Shown piece after piece: positions 24,985 through 31,125 of a DNA stretch of 64,000 nt. The translations under genes and the position numbers were made by a program. A model generated the notes under the pieces. That model was given only the letters and a program-made list of their open reading frames with translations, ran no database searches and was not told the DNA's origin. The number at the start of each line of letters is the position of its first letter. Position 1 is the stretch's first letter. The stretch is from Lachnospiraceae bacterium (GTDB lineage Bacteria; Bacillota; Clostridia; Lachnospirales; Lachnospiraceae), in assembly GCA_022800815.1 (NCBI GenBank), contig JAAWRC010000013.1, positions 1-64,000 of the forward strand. The letters run 5' to 3'.

Positions 24985-25245
24985 TCATCCGTTGCTGTCA
25001 AATTGCACAATGGTTCGTGATCCTGCGACTCTCCGGGGGCCTTAGAATTTCTTGGCGTTCCAGTCGTAAAACAGCAATTTCCGGATAGGATGTCCGGAAA
25101 AGGCTTATGCCGCCATGGACGGCGGGTCATAAGCCGGTTGCGTGAAACTTGCTCAGATTCAATTGGAACGTTTAGAAATTCAAGGCCTGCGGAACCGGAG
25201 CAGAGAACGAACCAATTGTGCAATTTGACGGCAGCCAACTTGGGA
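24985..25245. repeat. Long imperfect palindromic element D between lepA and hemW
   Basis: CTGTCAAATTGCACAATGG (24995-25013) is the near-exact reverse complement of the sequence at 25207-25234. Further in, CTCCGG..GGCCTTAGAATTTCTTGGCGTTCC faces GGAACGTTTAGAAATTCAAGGCC..CCGGAG. At the centre GGCTTATGCCGCC (25102-25114) pairs with GGCGGGTCATAAGCC (25121-25135). The whole 260-base region can fold as one branched hairpin. No gene is seen in it. It does not clearly share sequence with elements A-C. Confidence 0.75.
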
Positions 25246-27096: not shown

Positions 27097-27618
27097 ATGG
27101 GAAAGAAAACAAAGAAATGGTTCATCGCATTGGGCGTTCTGTCGCTGTTTTTTGTCCTTTACGGGATCTGGCGGGTGCAGGTTCCGGCGGTTGATGCGGG
27201 GGAGATCACGGCGGTCTCCTTCACCTTCAACCCGGTCGGCGTGACCTCCAGGAAAAACTGCACGGTGTGGGACCAGGAGTCCGTCAGACGTCTGTGTGAT
27301 TATGTGAACCAAATGGAAAAGAACGGTTTTGCTTTTAATCGAACTCTTAAGGGCGGCGGCTGGGCGAGCGTCTTTCTAAACTTCTACAAGGGTGACGTGC
27401 TCCGCTGGACCGTGAGCATTTCCGGCGGGGAGATCGTTGAGTATCAGGGGGCTTTTTTACCAAAGACCTTCCATCTGGGAGAAGGGGAAGCAGAAGAACT
27501 GCAGCAGATTTTGACAGAGCTCTGGGAGGAAAACCCGGACAGTTCCGGCATTTCCTACACCGCCATGCGATTACGGAAGCGCCTGGCGGAGTTTGGAGGG
27601 GGAGGCGGCTCCCCCTGA
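27097..27618 (+). CDS. Hypothetical membrane-anchored protein, 173 aa
   Basis: I do not recognise this protein. It starts MGKKTKKWFIALGVLSLFF, a positively charged stretch followed by one membrane helix (about residues 8-26), so most of it is probably extracytoplasmic. The rest has strands such as AVSFTFNPVGVTS and WASVFLNFYKGDVLRW, without recognisable motifs. AGGGAGGTT precedes the ATG. The last residues (EFGGGGGSP) and the stop codon lie in a direct repeat that recurs at 29712-29794, so the natural 3' end may have been changed by that repeat. Confidence 0.6.
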   Translation: MGKKTKKWFIALGVLSLFFVLYGIWRVQVPAVDAGEITAVSFTFNPVGVTSRKNCTVWDQESVRRLCDYVNQMEKNGFAFNRTLKGGGWASVFLNFYKGDVLRWTVSISGGEIVEYQGAFLPKTFHLGEGEAEELQQILTELWEENPDSSGISYTAMRLRKRLAEFGGGGGSP

Positions 27619-27664
27619 CAGCACGGCCCTCGCATCTCCCGCAAAACAGGAAGAGTTCTAGCTG
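27588..27664 (+). repeat. Direct repeat bordering the SirTM cassette, left copy
   Basis: The core GGCTCCCCCTGAC...CAAAACAGGAAGA (27607-27655) recurs at 29736-29786 with roughly 80 percent identity by eye, in the same orientation. The 2.1 kb between the copies holds the HxlR, macrodomain and sirtuin genes. The right copy is part of palindromic element C. Confidence 0.65.
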
Positions 27665-27981
27665 TTTTTCTTTTTATATTCTGTTCCCCAGGAGAACATA
27701 GCGTCCAAAATCGGCTTTAGGCTGAATCCGGTTTCAGTGAGTGTATACTCTACCAGCGGCGGCACTTCAGGATAAATTTTACGGGTAAGCAATCCGTTGT
27801 CTTCCATAGAGCGTAAATTGGCAGTCAATACTTTTTGCGAAATGTTTCCAACAGATTTTTTCAACTCTCCAAATCGCTTTGTACCTTCCAGCAGGTCACG
27901 GATAATAAGAACTTTCCAGCGGTCACTGATCAGCATCAAAGTGGTTTCCACCGGACAGGCAGGTAAATTTTTTTCCATCAA
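27658..27981 (-). CDS. HxlR-family winged-helix transcriptional regulator
   Basis: The 107-aa protein has the HxlR signature: a CPVETTLMLISDRWKVLII N-terminus (a redox-relevant Cys conserved in part of the family), then LLEGTKRFGELKKSVGNISQKVLTANLRSME (key run RFGELKKSVGNISQKVL) as the recognition helix region and EVPPLVEYTLTETG as the wing. Such proteins are usually dimeric repressors or activators responding to aldehydes or disulfide stress. It is divergent from the macrodomain gene with about 118 bases between the starts, so it probably controls that operon. Its DNA is more A+T-rich than the surroundings, like its cassette neighbours. A second ATG one codon in (27978) is possible. Confidence 0.9.
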   Translation of the reverse strand: MMEKNLPACPVETTLMLISDRWKVLIIRDLLEGTKRFGELKKSVGNISQKVLTANLRSMEDNGLLTRKIYPEVPPLVEYTLTETGFSLKPILDAMFSWGTEYKKKNS

Positions 27982-28099
27982 AATCCCCCATGTTAAAGGG
28001 AAACCACATTCAGCAGAGAATTTCAGTTGTGGCAGAATAGGCGAATTAAAAAGTCAATCAGTCAAATATGCCCGCACCGGCAATGGGAAGGAGGACGTT

Positions 28100-28873
28100 A
28101 TGACACAGAAAGAAAGGCTTCTTTATCTGCTCCAATATCTCACAGGGGAAGACAGGGAGTTACAATCGATAGAGATTCCTGCGGAGGATGCCGCACGGAA
28201 GCGCCTGTTACGTTCCCTCATGAATGTCCGTCCGCCAAAACCGGCCGCAAAAGATTTTTTGAACGTACAGGATGAATATTTGCGGGAGGAGCGGGCAGAA
28301 AAAGGCATCATCTCTCTAGAGGATATTTCCTTTGTGAAATCCGGTATTTACTTGTGGCAGGGCGATATTACACGGTTATCCGTAGACGCCGTCGTAAATG
28401 CTGCTAACAGCGCCATGCTGGGCTGCTTTGTCCCCTGCCACGGGTGTATTGACAACGCCATTCATTCTGCCGCAGGCGTGGAGCTCCGCCTGGAATGTTC
28501 CCGCATCATGGAGAGACAGAACGTAAAAGAGCCCGTGGGAAAGGCCAAAATAACGGGAGCCTATAATCTTCCGTGCCGTTATGTTCTCCACACGGTCGGC
28601 CCGACGGTCCACGGGGAAGTCACGAGAAGGGACCGTGACCTGTTATCAGACTGTTACCGCTCCTGTCTTGCACTCGCCGCAGAATATCGGTTGAAAAGCA
28701 TAGCTTTCTGCTGCATTTCCACGGGCGAGTTTCATTTCCCGAACGAAGCTGCCGCCGAGATAGCGATCCGAACGGTAACGGACTATCGGCAAGAGAATCC
28801 GGGTGATATGGAGGTGGTTTTCAATGTTTTCAAAGATTGCGACTATGAAATCTACAGACAGTTATTGGGATAA
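28100..28873 (+). CDS. Zinc-containing macrodomain protein-ADP-ribose hydrolase
   Basis: The 257-aa protein has an alpha-helical N-terminal extension (about residues 1-75) and a macrodomain. ADP-ribose-binding loops are VDAVVNAANSAMLG and CISTGEFHFPNEAA; the zinc-macro signature GCFVPCHGCIDNAIHSAAG supplies Cys/His/Cys ligands near the active site. This is the type encoded next to class M sirtuins in Staphylococcus and Streptococcus, where it removes ADP-ribose added by the sirtuin. The start has GAAGGAGGACG upstream. Its 3' end overlaps the sirtuin gene by 50 bases. The GcvH-like target and lipoate ligase genes found in those other operons are not present here. Confidence 0.9.
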   Translation: MTQKERLLYLLQYLTGEDRELQSIEIPAEDAARKRLLRSLMNVRPPKPAAKDFLNVQDEYLREERAEKGIISLEDISFVKSGIYLWQGDITRLSVDAVVNAANSAMLGCFVPCHGCIDNAIHSAAGVELRLECSRIMERQNVKEPVGKAKITGAYNLPCRYVLHTVGPTVHGEVTRRDRDLLSDCYRSCLALAAEYRLKSIAFCCISTGEFHFPNEAAAEIAIRTVTDYRQENPGDMEVVFNVFKDCDYEIYRQLLG

Positions 28874-29690
28874 GATCGAAAAAGTGAAGATGAAAATCCG
28901 GAGTGCGGACGCTATCTTGATCGGTGCGGGTGCGGGGCTGTCTACTTCTGCCGGATTTACTTATTCCGGGAAACGGTTTGAGGACCACTTCCCGGATTTT
29001 ATAAAAAAATACGGTTTCAAGGATATGTATTCGGCGGGCTTTTATCCCTACGAGACCCTGGAAGAACATTGGGCGTACTGGAGCCGTTACGTTTTTATCA
29101 ACCGTTATGAAAATGCACCGAAAAGCGTCTATCATGATTTGTACAACCTGGTACGGGACAAGGACTATTTTGTTTTAACAACAAATGTTGACCACTGTTT
29201 TCAAAAGGCGGGTTTTGATAAGCGCAGACTCTTTTATACACAGGGCGATTATGGGCTATGGCAATGTTCAAAACCCTGTCACAATAAAACTTACGATAAC
29301 GAGGCCATTATTAAAAAGATGGTTGCCGAACAGGAAAAGATGCGTGTTCCGCCCGAATTGGTTCCACGCTGTCCGGTCTGCGGTGCGCCGATGTCAATGA
29401 ATTTAAGGGCAGACAATACCTTTGTTGGAGATGACGGCTGGCATATGGCGGCAGAGAGGTATCAAGCCTTTGTGAGCCGCCATAAGGACCTGAATCTTGT
29501 ATATTTGGAATTGGGCGTTGGCGGCAACACGCCGGGGATTATCAAATATCCCTTCTGGCGGATGACAGAGGAAAACCCGCAGGCGGCGTATATCTGTGTG
29601 AATTACGGGGAGGCGGTCTGCCCGAGGGAGATTGAAGGGCAGTCGATATGCATTGACGGGGATATCGGGGAAGTATTAGAACTGCTTTAA
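28824..29690 (+). CDS. Class M sirtuin (SirTM), protein ADP-ribosyltransferase
   Basis: The 288-aa protein has the sirtuin NAD-binding fold: ILIGAGAGLSTSAGFTYSG near residues 29-47, then TTNVDHCFQKAGF, YLELGVGGNTPGIIKYPFW and CVNYGE. The place of the deacetylase catalytic His-Gly is taken by YTQGDYG, with Gln in place of His, as in class M enzymes, which ADP-ribosylate proteins. Zinc cysteines are in QCSKPC and CPVC. The ATG at 28824 follows GGAGGTGG at good spacing and lies in the 3' end of the macrodomain gene. Base composition resembles the macrodomain gene and not the flanking genes, suggesting transfer as a unit. Confidence 0.9.
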   Translation: MFSKIATMKSTDSYWDKIEKVKMKIRSADAILIGAGAGLSTSAGFTYSGKRFEDHFPDFIKKYGFKDMYSAGFYPYETLEEHWAYWSRYVFINRYENAPKSVYHDLYNLVRDKDYFVLTTNVDHCFQKAGFDKRRLFYTQGDYGLWQCSKPCHNKTYDNEAIIKKMVAEQEKMRVPPELVPRCPVCGAPMSMNLRADNTFVGDDGWHMAAERYQAFVSRHKDLNLVYLELGVGGNTPGIIKYPFWRMTEENPQAAYICVNYGEAVCPREIEGQSICIDGDIGEVLELL

Positions 29691-29699
29691 TGTATCATG

Positions 29700-29884
29700 A
29701 TGCCTGTCCCGACAGAGTTTCGGGATGAGGGCAGGGGCTCCCCCTGACGACGGCAGCCCCCATATCCCCCACAAAACAGGAAGAAGATTCGCTGCCCGCT
29801 TTTATAGCAGTAAAATTGCCTGCAGATAAGCGACGCAGTGAAAACTCCAAAACCGACGTGTCTGCGGCAGGAAAGGACAGGCAT
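29700..29884. repeat. Palindromic element C (family with A and B), with embedded right direct repeat
   Basis: The outer arms TGCCTGTCC (29701-29709) and GGACAGGCA (29875-29883) pair, and the last is followed by five Ts, so it can also end the sirtuin transcript. The right half (CCCGCTTTTATAGC...GATAAGCGACGCAG...ACGTGTCTGCG) aligns with the right half of element B. The left half contains 29712-29794, repeated at 27588-27664. Confidence 0.6.
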
Positions 29885-29984
29885 TTTTGGCGTCGAATAT
29901 TTTAAAAGGACCTCTCTTCTTCCGTCTTTCCCCTAAAACCCAAAAGCAGCCCCGCATAGTTTTACAGAAATTTGAAAAAATATA

Positions 29985-30026: not shown

Positions 30027-30053
30027 TTAGCACTCCCTCTTGTCGAGTGCTAA
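30027..30053 (+). promoter_or_regulatory. CIRCE operator (HrcA binding site)
   Basis: TTAGCACTC, nine bases, GAGTGCTAA is an exact CIRCE inverted repeat between the promoter and the hrcA start. It indicates HrcA repression relieved by heat shock. Confidence 0.97.
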
Positions 30054-30075: not shown

Positions 30076-31125
30076 GTGGAACTGGACGAACGGAAGAAGA
30101 AGATTTTAAACGCGATCATCCGCAACTACCAGGAAACCGGAGAGCCGGTCGGCTCACGGACCATCTCCAAATATTCGGACCTGCAGCTCTCCTCGGCGAC
30201 GATCCGCAATGAGATGTCGGATCTGGAGGAGATGGGACTGATCGTCCAGCCCCATACCTCGGCGGGGCGGATTCCCACGGACCGGGGCTATCGCCTTTAT
30301 GTGGATCACATGCTGGAGACTGCGGACCGGGATGCGGGGCGGCAGGAGTTAGCCCAGACCAGCGAGTTCCTGATCGACCGGATGGACCGGATGGAGCAGG
30401 TGTTAAAGCAGATGGCCAAGGTCCTGGCGCTCAATACCAACTATGCGTCCATGATCTCCGCCCCCAGGTACAACCGGAACAAGTTAAAATTCATTCAGCT
30501 TTCCCGGGTGGAGGAACACAAGCTTTTGGCCGTGGTGGTCGTGGAGGGCAACCTCATCAAGAACACCATCTTCGAGGTGGAGGAGAAGCTTTCGGAGGAA
30601 GAGATCCTTTCCCTGAACCTTTTGCTCAACACGAACTTAAACGGGCTGACCATCGACGAAATCAACCTGGGGATCATCACCAGGCTCAAGGAGCAGGCCG
30701 GCGGCCATACCGAGGTGGTGGGAAAGGTCCTGGATGCGGTAGCGGAGGCCATCCGAGGGGATGACGAGGATCTGCAGATTTACACCAGCGGGGCCACCAA
30801 CATCTTCCGGTATCCGGAACTCTCCGACAGCAGCAAGGCCAAGGAGATTATCCAGGTATTCGAGGAGAAGAAGCAGCTCACCAATCTCCTGAGCGACAAG
30901 CTGGGGGAGGAAGGGCAGCAGGGCATTCAGGTCTATATCGGGGATGAAACTCCGGTTCAAAGCATGAAAGACTGCAGCGTTGTCACGGCCACCTACGATT
31001 TGGGAGATGGCCTTCAGGGCACCATCGGGATCGTGGGTCCCAAGCGGATGGATTATGAGAAGGTGGTTTCGGCGCTCCAGACAGTGATGGGGCAGCTTGA
31101 CACCATGTTTAAAAAGGAAGAATAG
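30076..31125 (+). CDS. hrcA: Heat-inducible transcription repressor HrcA
   Basis: The 349-aa repressor binds CIRCE and controls chaperone genes. The N-terminal winged helix includes VGSRTISKYSDLQLSSATIRNEMSDLEEMG (key run SSATIRNEMSDLE), followed by QPHTSAGRIPTDRGYR, the family hallmark. The middle and C-terminal dimerisation domains contain GLTIDEINLG and MDYEKVVSALQTV. The start codon is GTG, preceded by AAGGGAG about 12 bases upstream. It is the first gene of hrcA-grpE-dnaK-dnaJ and is under its own CIRCE. Confidence 0.97.
   Translation: MELDERKKKILNAIIRNYQETGEPVGSRTISKYSDLQLSSATIRNEMSDLEEMGLIVQPHTSAGRIPTDRGYRLYVDHMLETADRDAGRQELAQTSEFLIDRMDRMEQVLKQMAKVLALNTNYASMISAPRYNRNKLKFIQLSRVEEHKLLAVVVVEGNLIKNTIFEVEEKLSEEEILSLNLLLNTNLNGLTIDEINLGIITRLKEQAGGHTEVVGKVLDAVAEAIRGDDEDLQIYTSGATNIFRYPELSDSSKAKEIIQVFEEKKQLTNLLSDKLGEEGQQGIQVYIGDETPVQSMKDCSVVTATYDLGDGLQGTIGIVGPKRMDYEKVVSALQTVMGQLDTMFKKEE

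Follow-up and report, generated by a model that had tools for sequence, protein, structure and literature searches.

Two kinds of operon built around a class-M sirtuin (SirTM) have been described. In the extended SirTM operon of Staphylococcaceae and Lactobacillales, GcvH-L, LplA2, a zinc macrodomain (Zn-macrodomain) and SirTM are encoded together with OYE and LLM, and lipoylated GcvH-L is a demonstrated SirTM substrate (PMC4518038). Minimal operons with a SirTM/Zn-macrodomain pair have also been published, with Lachnospiraceae among their hosts (PMC4518038), and the tested pair-type Zn-macrodomain, MorMacro, which comes from a minimal operon and whose structure is 8RSI, does not demodify GcvH-L (PMC11490716). 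In class-M sirtuins QG replaces the catalytic HG motif (PMC4518038), and Zn-macrodomains are defined by a zinc-binding catalytic loop with Dx3H (PMC11490716). Here we analyzed a 64-kb stretch of Lachnospiraceae bacterium DNA (GCA_022800815.1, contig JAAWRC010000013.1, positions 1 to 64,000; hereafter the window), in which hxlR, macrodomain and SirTM genes lie in an A+T-rich block of 2 kb that is bordered by imperfect direct repeats of ~75 bp. Our analyses make it likely that the block arrived by horizontal transfer as one copy of a mobile redox-stress ADP-ribosylation cassette, and that its control region was lost afterwards.

The loss is evident from comparison with 80 related loci (L), the top-ranking ones among at least 579 SirTM relatives in the collection searched. 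In complete near relatives, hxlR is separated by an operator/promoter region from the divergently read nmrA-like oxidoreductase, macrodomain and SirTM genes, and the nmrA-like NAD(P)H-binding gene has 209 codons (PF13460 in L071). The window is collinear with the complete cassette L057 on either side of 27991/27992 (27665-27991 with L057 6091-6417, and 27992-29668 with L057 7143-8863), indicating that 725 nt of the L057 arrangement are absent at one point. The divergent promoter, the operator and all but 15 nmrA codons were lost there, and a search of the genome at E 0.001 returned no second nmrA relative. Thus the unit, which the first-pass annotation described as shorter than the known operon, is not naturally short but a deletion derivative, and its stress inducibility in this genome appears doubtful because promoter and operator went with the deletion.

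The conserved sequence upstream of hxlR consists of a 23-base core and its surroundings, with the consensus TAGTTTCnTTTnGGTAACTATnGCACAATAAAGTGCTTACTTTAC, followed by a TATTATAAT box. This core was present with at most four mismatches in 23 at 28 of the 53 tested loci, that is, at 28 of the 32 with HxlR identity of at least 71% (the failures were L072, L075, L087 and L106) and at 0 of the 21 with lower identity; the best of 1060 base shuffles had 5 mismatches. In the window, by comparison, the best match had 10 mismatches within 27501-28200 and 7 across the whole window on both strands. Between the junction and the macrodomain start the scan detected no promoter-like site on the + strand, while the same scan detected one in the L057 intergenic region.

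These results bear on a different explanation, namely that the block is a functional compact three-gene operon in which HxlR represses macrodomain and SirTM through a rewired or unrecognised promoter and the oxidoreductase is dispensable. The ribosome-binding site before the macrodomain gene has been kept, the frames are intact with mostly synonymous change in SirTM and hxlR (counts are given below), and a whole nmrA gene is absent elsewhere too, with parts left in L058-L061 and L078 and no trace in L064, L067, L068, L069 and L098. However, all of these nmrA-deficient loci retain the operator and promoter that are gone here, and promoter matches in the window are at chance level (3 versus 0.9 expected); none of them lies on the + strand ahead of the macrodomain gene. 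We regard a functional compact operon as unlikely.

The sub-type to which the deletion derivative belongs comprises 25 cassettes, the window included, defined by HxlR identity of at least 80% or by any trace of nmrA. All four genes are present in order in only 6 of these (L057, L063, L066, which has an extra gene, L071, L073 and L088), and nmrA is partial in 6 (the window, L058, L059, L060, L061, with a 12-residue match at E 0.6, and L078). In L065, L070 and L091, nmrA and SirTM are found with no adjoining macrodomain gene, and in the other 10 (L064, L067, L068, L069, L083, L085, L098, L100, L104 and L110) nmrA or hxlR is absent nearby or nmrA lies elsewhere, although some contigs end near these cassettes. 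The partial or absent nmrA genes, with their varied endpoints, show that gene loss from the cassette is recurrent; as loci were discovered through SirTM, losses of SirTM itself are under-counted. L065, L070, L091 and others carry an intact-frame SirTM, a writer without an adjoining eraser.

An assembly artefact, with either the 27991/27992 junction or the entire block being a chimaera, was also considered, as the genome is a 75-contig draft. However, the block is anchored on both sides within one contig, and similar nmrA deletions with other endpoints occur in records whose titles name a strain, L058 (Acetatifactor muris DSM 23669) and L078 (strain 526-35); such an artefact is very improbable.

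Concerning the acquisition of the block, its composition is foreign to its surroundings. The G + C content of 27655-29690 is 47.8%, compared to 56.2% for the whole window, and lies below that of all 1159 equal-length windows taken outside the block in 50-nt steps, the lowest of which reaches 49.1%. The gene content, the atypical composition and the direct repeats reported by the first-pass annotation were thus all confirmed. Across 60 loci, the G + C deficit of the macrodomain and SirTM genes in the window (8 points) is the fourth strongest, and an explanation of low G + C as a trait of the gene family was rejected, since just 27 of the 60 loci are lower than their flanks.

The site itself was located through hrcA, which was found in all 11 genomes of the genus, including the window's own. 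No cassette DNA was detected in the ~1.5 kb upstream of hrcA in any of the 10 congeners (blastn, E 0.01), a search that reached hemW in nine and covered the whole orfX-hrcA interval in the remaining one, G008. G008, the nearest congener by HrcA (97%), has the order orfX, one repeat copy and hrcA promoter, with no cassette; it is a cassette-free counterpart with a single repeat copy, such as had been proposed as a check, and may be either an empty site or a scar. In G005 and G010, orfX lies beside hrcA and the repeat is absent, and in the 7 other congeners neither orfX nor the cassette was found at the site upstream of hrcA. The presence of the cassette at this locus in all relatives, which would have spoken against acquisition, is not what the genus displays.

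The border repeats have a core of 57 aligned columns with 79% identity (27599-27654 versus 29729-29784), which can be extended by eye to 74 nt on the left and 83 nt on the right, and their local alignment score of 55 compares with at most 26 in 500 order-1 Markov sequence pairs. Both copies read in the register of the orfX end (peptides in Table 1), indicating that the repeat is a duplicated 3' end of the left neighbour together with its hairpin. The core pattern has two hits in the window's genome, one in G008 and none in the other 9 congeners, and the remaining DNA matches are short (at most 27 query bases, E 0.04 or worse); a dispersed or mobile element was therefore rejected from pattern and DNA searches of the 11 genomes. 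As to the hallmarks of a transposon or integron cassette, the repeat scan detected no inverted repeat at the two borders, where the repeats are direct and ~75 nt long, and no recombinase was recognised by eye among the open reading frames (ORFs) listed for 22-36 kb, not all of which were profile-searched. The proposal that the cassette arrived by transfer or recombination at such an element is thus supported as regards acquisition, given the 10 congeners without the cassette at this site and the foreign G + C content, and is not supported for the repeat as a recombination element. The "palindromic element C" of the same annotation also dissolves as a single unit: the right repeat is separate from the interspersed palindromic repeat that abuts it from 29788. 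The latter, ~125 bp in length and read by eye as GCAGACGATAGGAAGG...CCGACGTGTCTGC, recurs at 16 further positions of the genome, each with E 5e-5 or better, and the half copy in the window has no match in Rfam.

Alternatively, the cassette may be ancestral, having stood between orfX and hrcA before being excised in relatives through the repeats, with G008 carrying the scar. In favour of this, the divergence of the two repeat copies is close to that of orfX between species, and when all three copies are aligned, that of G008 resembles the right repeat slightly more in its right part, at few informative sites. However, G005 and G010 have orfX and hrcA without any repeat, neither orfX nor the cassette was found there in the 7 other congeners, the G + C content is foreign, and cassettes elsewhere occupy different places. 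Vertical ancestry is, in our judgement, quite unlikely.

By record title the cassettes are mostly from Clostridia, and their surroundings vary from genome to genome, in keeping with horizontal acquisition. Among the nearest 35 loci, a flanking ORF of at least 100 residues within 5 kb is shared in 8 of 595 pairs, some flanks being cut by contig ends, and the DNA similarity of the window cassette to others ends close to the ends of hxlR and SirTM. Regulator and enzymes share their history only in part, as in L088, whose HxlR is 95% and SirTM 69% identical to those of the window; the two modules appear to have been exchanged between cassettes. Pairwise distances, used here in place of a likelihood tree, correlate across 42 loci (window included) with r of 0.66 for macrodomain-SirTM, 0.56 for HxlR-SirTM and 0.48 for HxlR-macrodomain.

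Within the genus, 10 of the 11 genomes have a SirTM match (E 0.001 or better). G006 has an apparently whole SirTM on C56 (61% identity, residues 4-288); G002 has a nearly whole one at a contig end on C9 (60-63%, residues 1-275) and an additional partial copy (49%, residues 14-211). G008 retains a fragment with an in-frame stop, and fragments, some near contig ends, are found in G001, G005, G006 and G007 too. The matches in G003, G004 and G009, one more in G006 and that on C42 of G002 are just ~30-40% identical and may be other sirtuins. As far as sequence comparison can tell, the genus has seen the cassette gained, moved and degraded. The congener loci L174-L178, L180, L182 and L183 hold SirTM, macrodomain or HxlR genes and fragments, some internally deleted and some near contig ends.

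Both enzyme genes, which overlap by 50 nt, look intact, and the pair looks able to attach and remove ADP-ribose on proteins. SirTM matches 5a3a, titled SIR2 family protein, which we take to be a SirTM (E 3.9e-80 over residues 18-284), as well as the fungal fusion Foc1Mfs1 (8rsn, E 7.5e-32). The Q140-G141 pair of the window is Q and G in all 86 sequences covering these columns, of 91 matches. The nearest solved structure to the macrodomain is 8rsi (E 4e-87), and in the zinc-binding loop of the window's protein, GCFVPCHGCIDNAIH, residues G108, C109, H114, C116 and H122 are present in all 72 covering sequences and D118 in 71. Judged by these protein families, the cassette would act by ADP-ribosylation.

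The regulator has a cysteine, Cys9, that is invariant in all 53 aligned sequences, the window included; Leu76 is found in the window alone, with Arg in 48 of the 53. In Bacillus members of the DUF24/HxlR family, a conserved N-terminal cysteine senses quinones, HOCl and diamide (PMC6943732), and by analogy Cys9 may sense redox or thiol stress, so that the cassette is probably controlled by a thiol sensor. The partner genes likewise suggest redox or electrophile stress. The nmrA-like gene forms a cluster of 14 of the 80 loci. In other branches, a gene whose end is ferredoxin-like (a cluster of 20 loci, of which one member matches EFR1, though below the curated cut-off) is carried along with a PPOX-like gene (a cluster of 8 loci, judged by one member with a match below cut-off); others again pair radical-SAM/SPASM, at 16 loci, with nitroreductase, at 15.

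Table 1. Features of the cassette block and its immediate neighbours in the window
Feature	Position	Strand	Remarks
orfX, left neighbour	27097..27618	+	173 aa; last codons (AEFGGGGGSP, then stop) inside left repeat
left direct repeat	27581..27654	+	3' end of orfX and hairpin sequence; matches the single G008 copy
hxlR, DUF24/HxlR regulator	27658..27981	-	Pfam HxlR, 111.5 bits
deletion junction	27991..27992		725 nt of complete cassette L057 (6418-7142) gone
nmrA-like NAD(P)H-binding gene remnant	27993..28040	+	final 15 codons with stop; 93% identical to residues 195-209 of L071
zinc macrodomain ADP-ribosylhydrolase (predicted)	28100..28873	+	NCBIfam PRK04143, 362 bits (cut-off 272); GCFVPCHGCIDNAIH motif intact
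class-M sirtuin SirTM	28824..29690	+	best PDB match 5a3a; QG replacing HG; Cys residues and TNVD motif intact
right direct repeat	29702..29784	+	in register with orfX end (EFRDEGRGSP, then stop)
interspersed palindromic repeat (~125 bp), about one half	29788..29890		abuts right direct repeat
hrcA, right neighbour	30076..31125	+	served to locate the site in 10 congeners

Among these features, orfX has no match in Pfam or NCBIfam, and Rfam has no match within the block. An annotation as anti-phage defence was rejected, as PADLOC returned no match for the four proteins submitted. Outside the block, a TwoAYGGAY RNA, a conserved RNA of unknown function, is located at 25030-25195 between lepA and hemW (94.4 bits). 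A perfect TTAGCACTC-N9-GAGTGCTAA inverted repeat at 30027-30053 before hrcA, ~0.3 kb from the cassette border, is presumably a CIRCE heat-shock operator.

Turning to the target, the first-pass annotation had remarked that GcvH-L and LplA2 are missing from the unit, and this extends to the entire genome: profile searches of the 97% complete draft detected no GcvH (PF01597), lipoate ligase (PF21948) or E2 (PF00198). The controls for these searches gave matches in 13, 13 and 10 of 14 genomes, respectively. Within the genus (11 genomes), one genome has GcvH, two have the ligase and one has a partial match to E2. The search also covered 50 genomes, those from which the first 50 of the 80 loci come; their completeness is not given. 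PF01597 matched at E 0.001 in 20 of these SirTM-bearing genomes, of which 13 pass the curated cut-off, while a full-length GcvH (E below 1e-38) is present in 4. The 9 other matches above the cut-off are open frames of 124-160 residues resembling biotinyl-type carriers, and were rejected as GcvH since all 9 have an EAMKM site, which we take to be the biotin site motif; 7 further, weaker matches lie below the cut-off. A lipoate ligase was found in 7 of the 50. As GcvH and the ligase were mostly not found in SirTM-bearing genomes, lipoylated GcvH-L seems unlikely to be the general target of such cassettes, in agreement with the failure of MorMacro to demodify GcvH-L (PMC11490716).

Taken together, these results can be accommodated by the following mechanism. 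In complete cassettes, thiol-reactive stress would modify Cys9 of HxlR and free the operator, leading to co-induction of the oxidoreductase, of SirTM as an NAD-dependent writer of mono-ADP-ribosylation and of the Zn-macrodomain as its eraser. Since searches of the genome detected neither GcvH nor lipoate ligase nor E2, the protein modified would be something else than lipoylated GcvH-L. In the window copy, writer and eraser would be transcribed at best by read-through or from an unrecognised promoter, outside the control of HxlR there. A more speculative proposal, which we hold to be improbable at present, is that the substrate is the cassette oxidoreductase itself, with SirTM and Zn-macrodomain serving as an exchangeable post-translational switch in Clostridia without detectable lipoylation and HxlR setting its timing. 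It would cover the nmrA-like protein, the ferredoxin-like and PPOX-like proteins, or radical-SAM and nitroreductase, and would find a parallel in GcvH-L of the extended operon.

Several observations weigh against the view of an acquired cassette that has decayed and acts on a target other than GcvH-L. The difference between the two repeat copies, 21%, is similar to that seen for orfX when the window's genome (G000) is compared with G008 (18%), which argues that the duplication is not recent, and G008 may have gained the cassette and then lost it. Because G002 and G006 carry SirTM genes elsewhere in their genomes, the transfer may also have taken place between members of the genus, and an outside source is not established. 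The reading frames are intact, and on the window branch synonymous and non-synonymous codons number 32:7 in SirTM and 17:2 in hxlR (sister L057, outgroup L071), suggesting that these genes may still be in use or that the deletion is recent. For the macrodomain gene, examined for relaxed selection, the synonymous to non-synonymous counts on the window branch and the sister branch were 17:8 versus 18:5 (L057), 17:12 versus 22:5 (L059) and 25:16 versus 24:5 (L063), and, with L059 as outgroup, 21:14 versus 29:11 (L057). Finally, the apparent absence of GcvH, LplA and E2 depends on profile searches of an incomplete draft, and G011, the genome carrying the nearest complete relative L057, has a lipoate ligase, with no GcvH match.

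The more interesting result is the wider class to which the block belongs, SirTM cassettes that are putatively under thiol control and carry exchangeable oxidoreductases. The SirTM circuit characterised in the cited papers depends on lipoylated GcvH-L, whereas many of the pairs described here reside in genomes mostly without a GcvH or ligase that could be found. The combination of HxlR, a readable operator and interchangeable oxidoreductases yields a short list of candidate substrates and a putatively inducible promoter to examine, and the window may show both the arrival and the decay of such cassettes. HxlR is unmentioned in the main text of PMC4518038, and no link between HxlR and macrodomains was found in print within the papers searched, a scope outside which subscription papers and supplements lie.

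Compared to the minimal pair (Rack et al. 2015, Ariza et al. 2024; PMC4518038, PMC11490716), the locus is alike in gene adjacency, in QG for HG and in the zinc loop with Dx3H. The complete relatives add to this pair a divergent one-cysteine HxlR with its own operator and a cassette oxidoreductase; the window copy has neither operator, promoter nor oxidoreductase, and lies in a genome where no GcvH, LplA or E2 was found. With the extended operon it shares the same writer and eraser families and the link to oxidoreductases, but no GcvH-L or lipoate ligase was found in operon or genome, the oxidoreductases of the relatives differ, and the regulator is an HxlR. The Bacillus DUF24/HxlR loci YodB, CatR and HypR, with azoreductase, nitroreductase and flavin reductase targets, likewise place a small one-cysteine regulator beside reductase genes (PMC6943732). 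In contrast to these loci, the HxlR described here, a presumptive sensor, adjoins the writer and the eraser of ADP-ribosylation.

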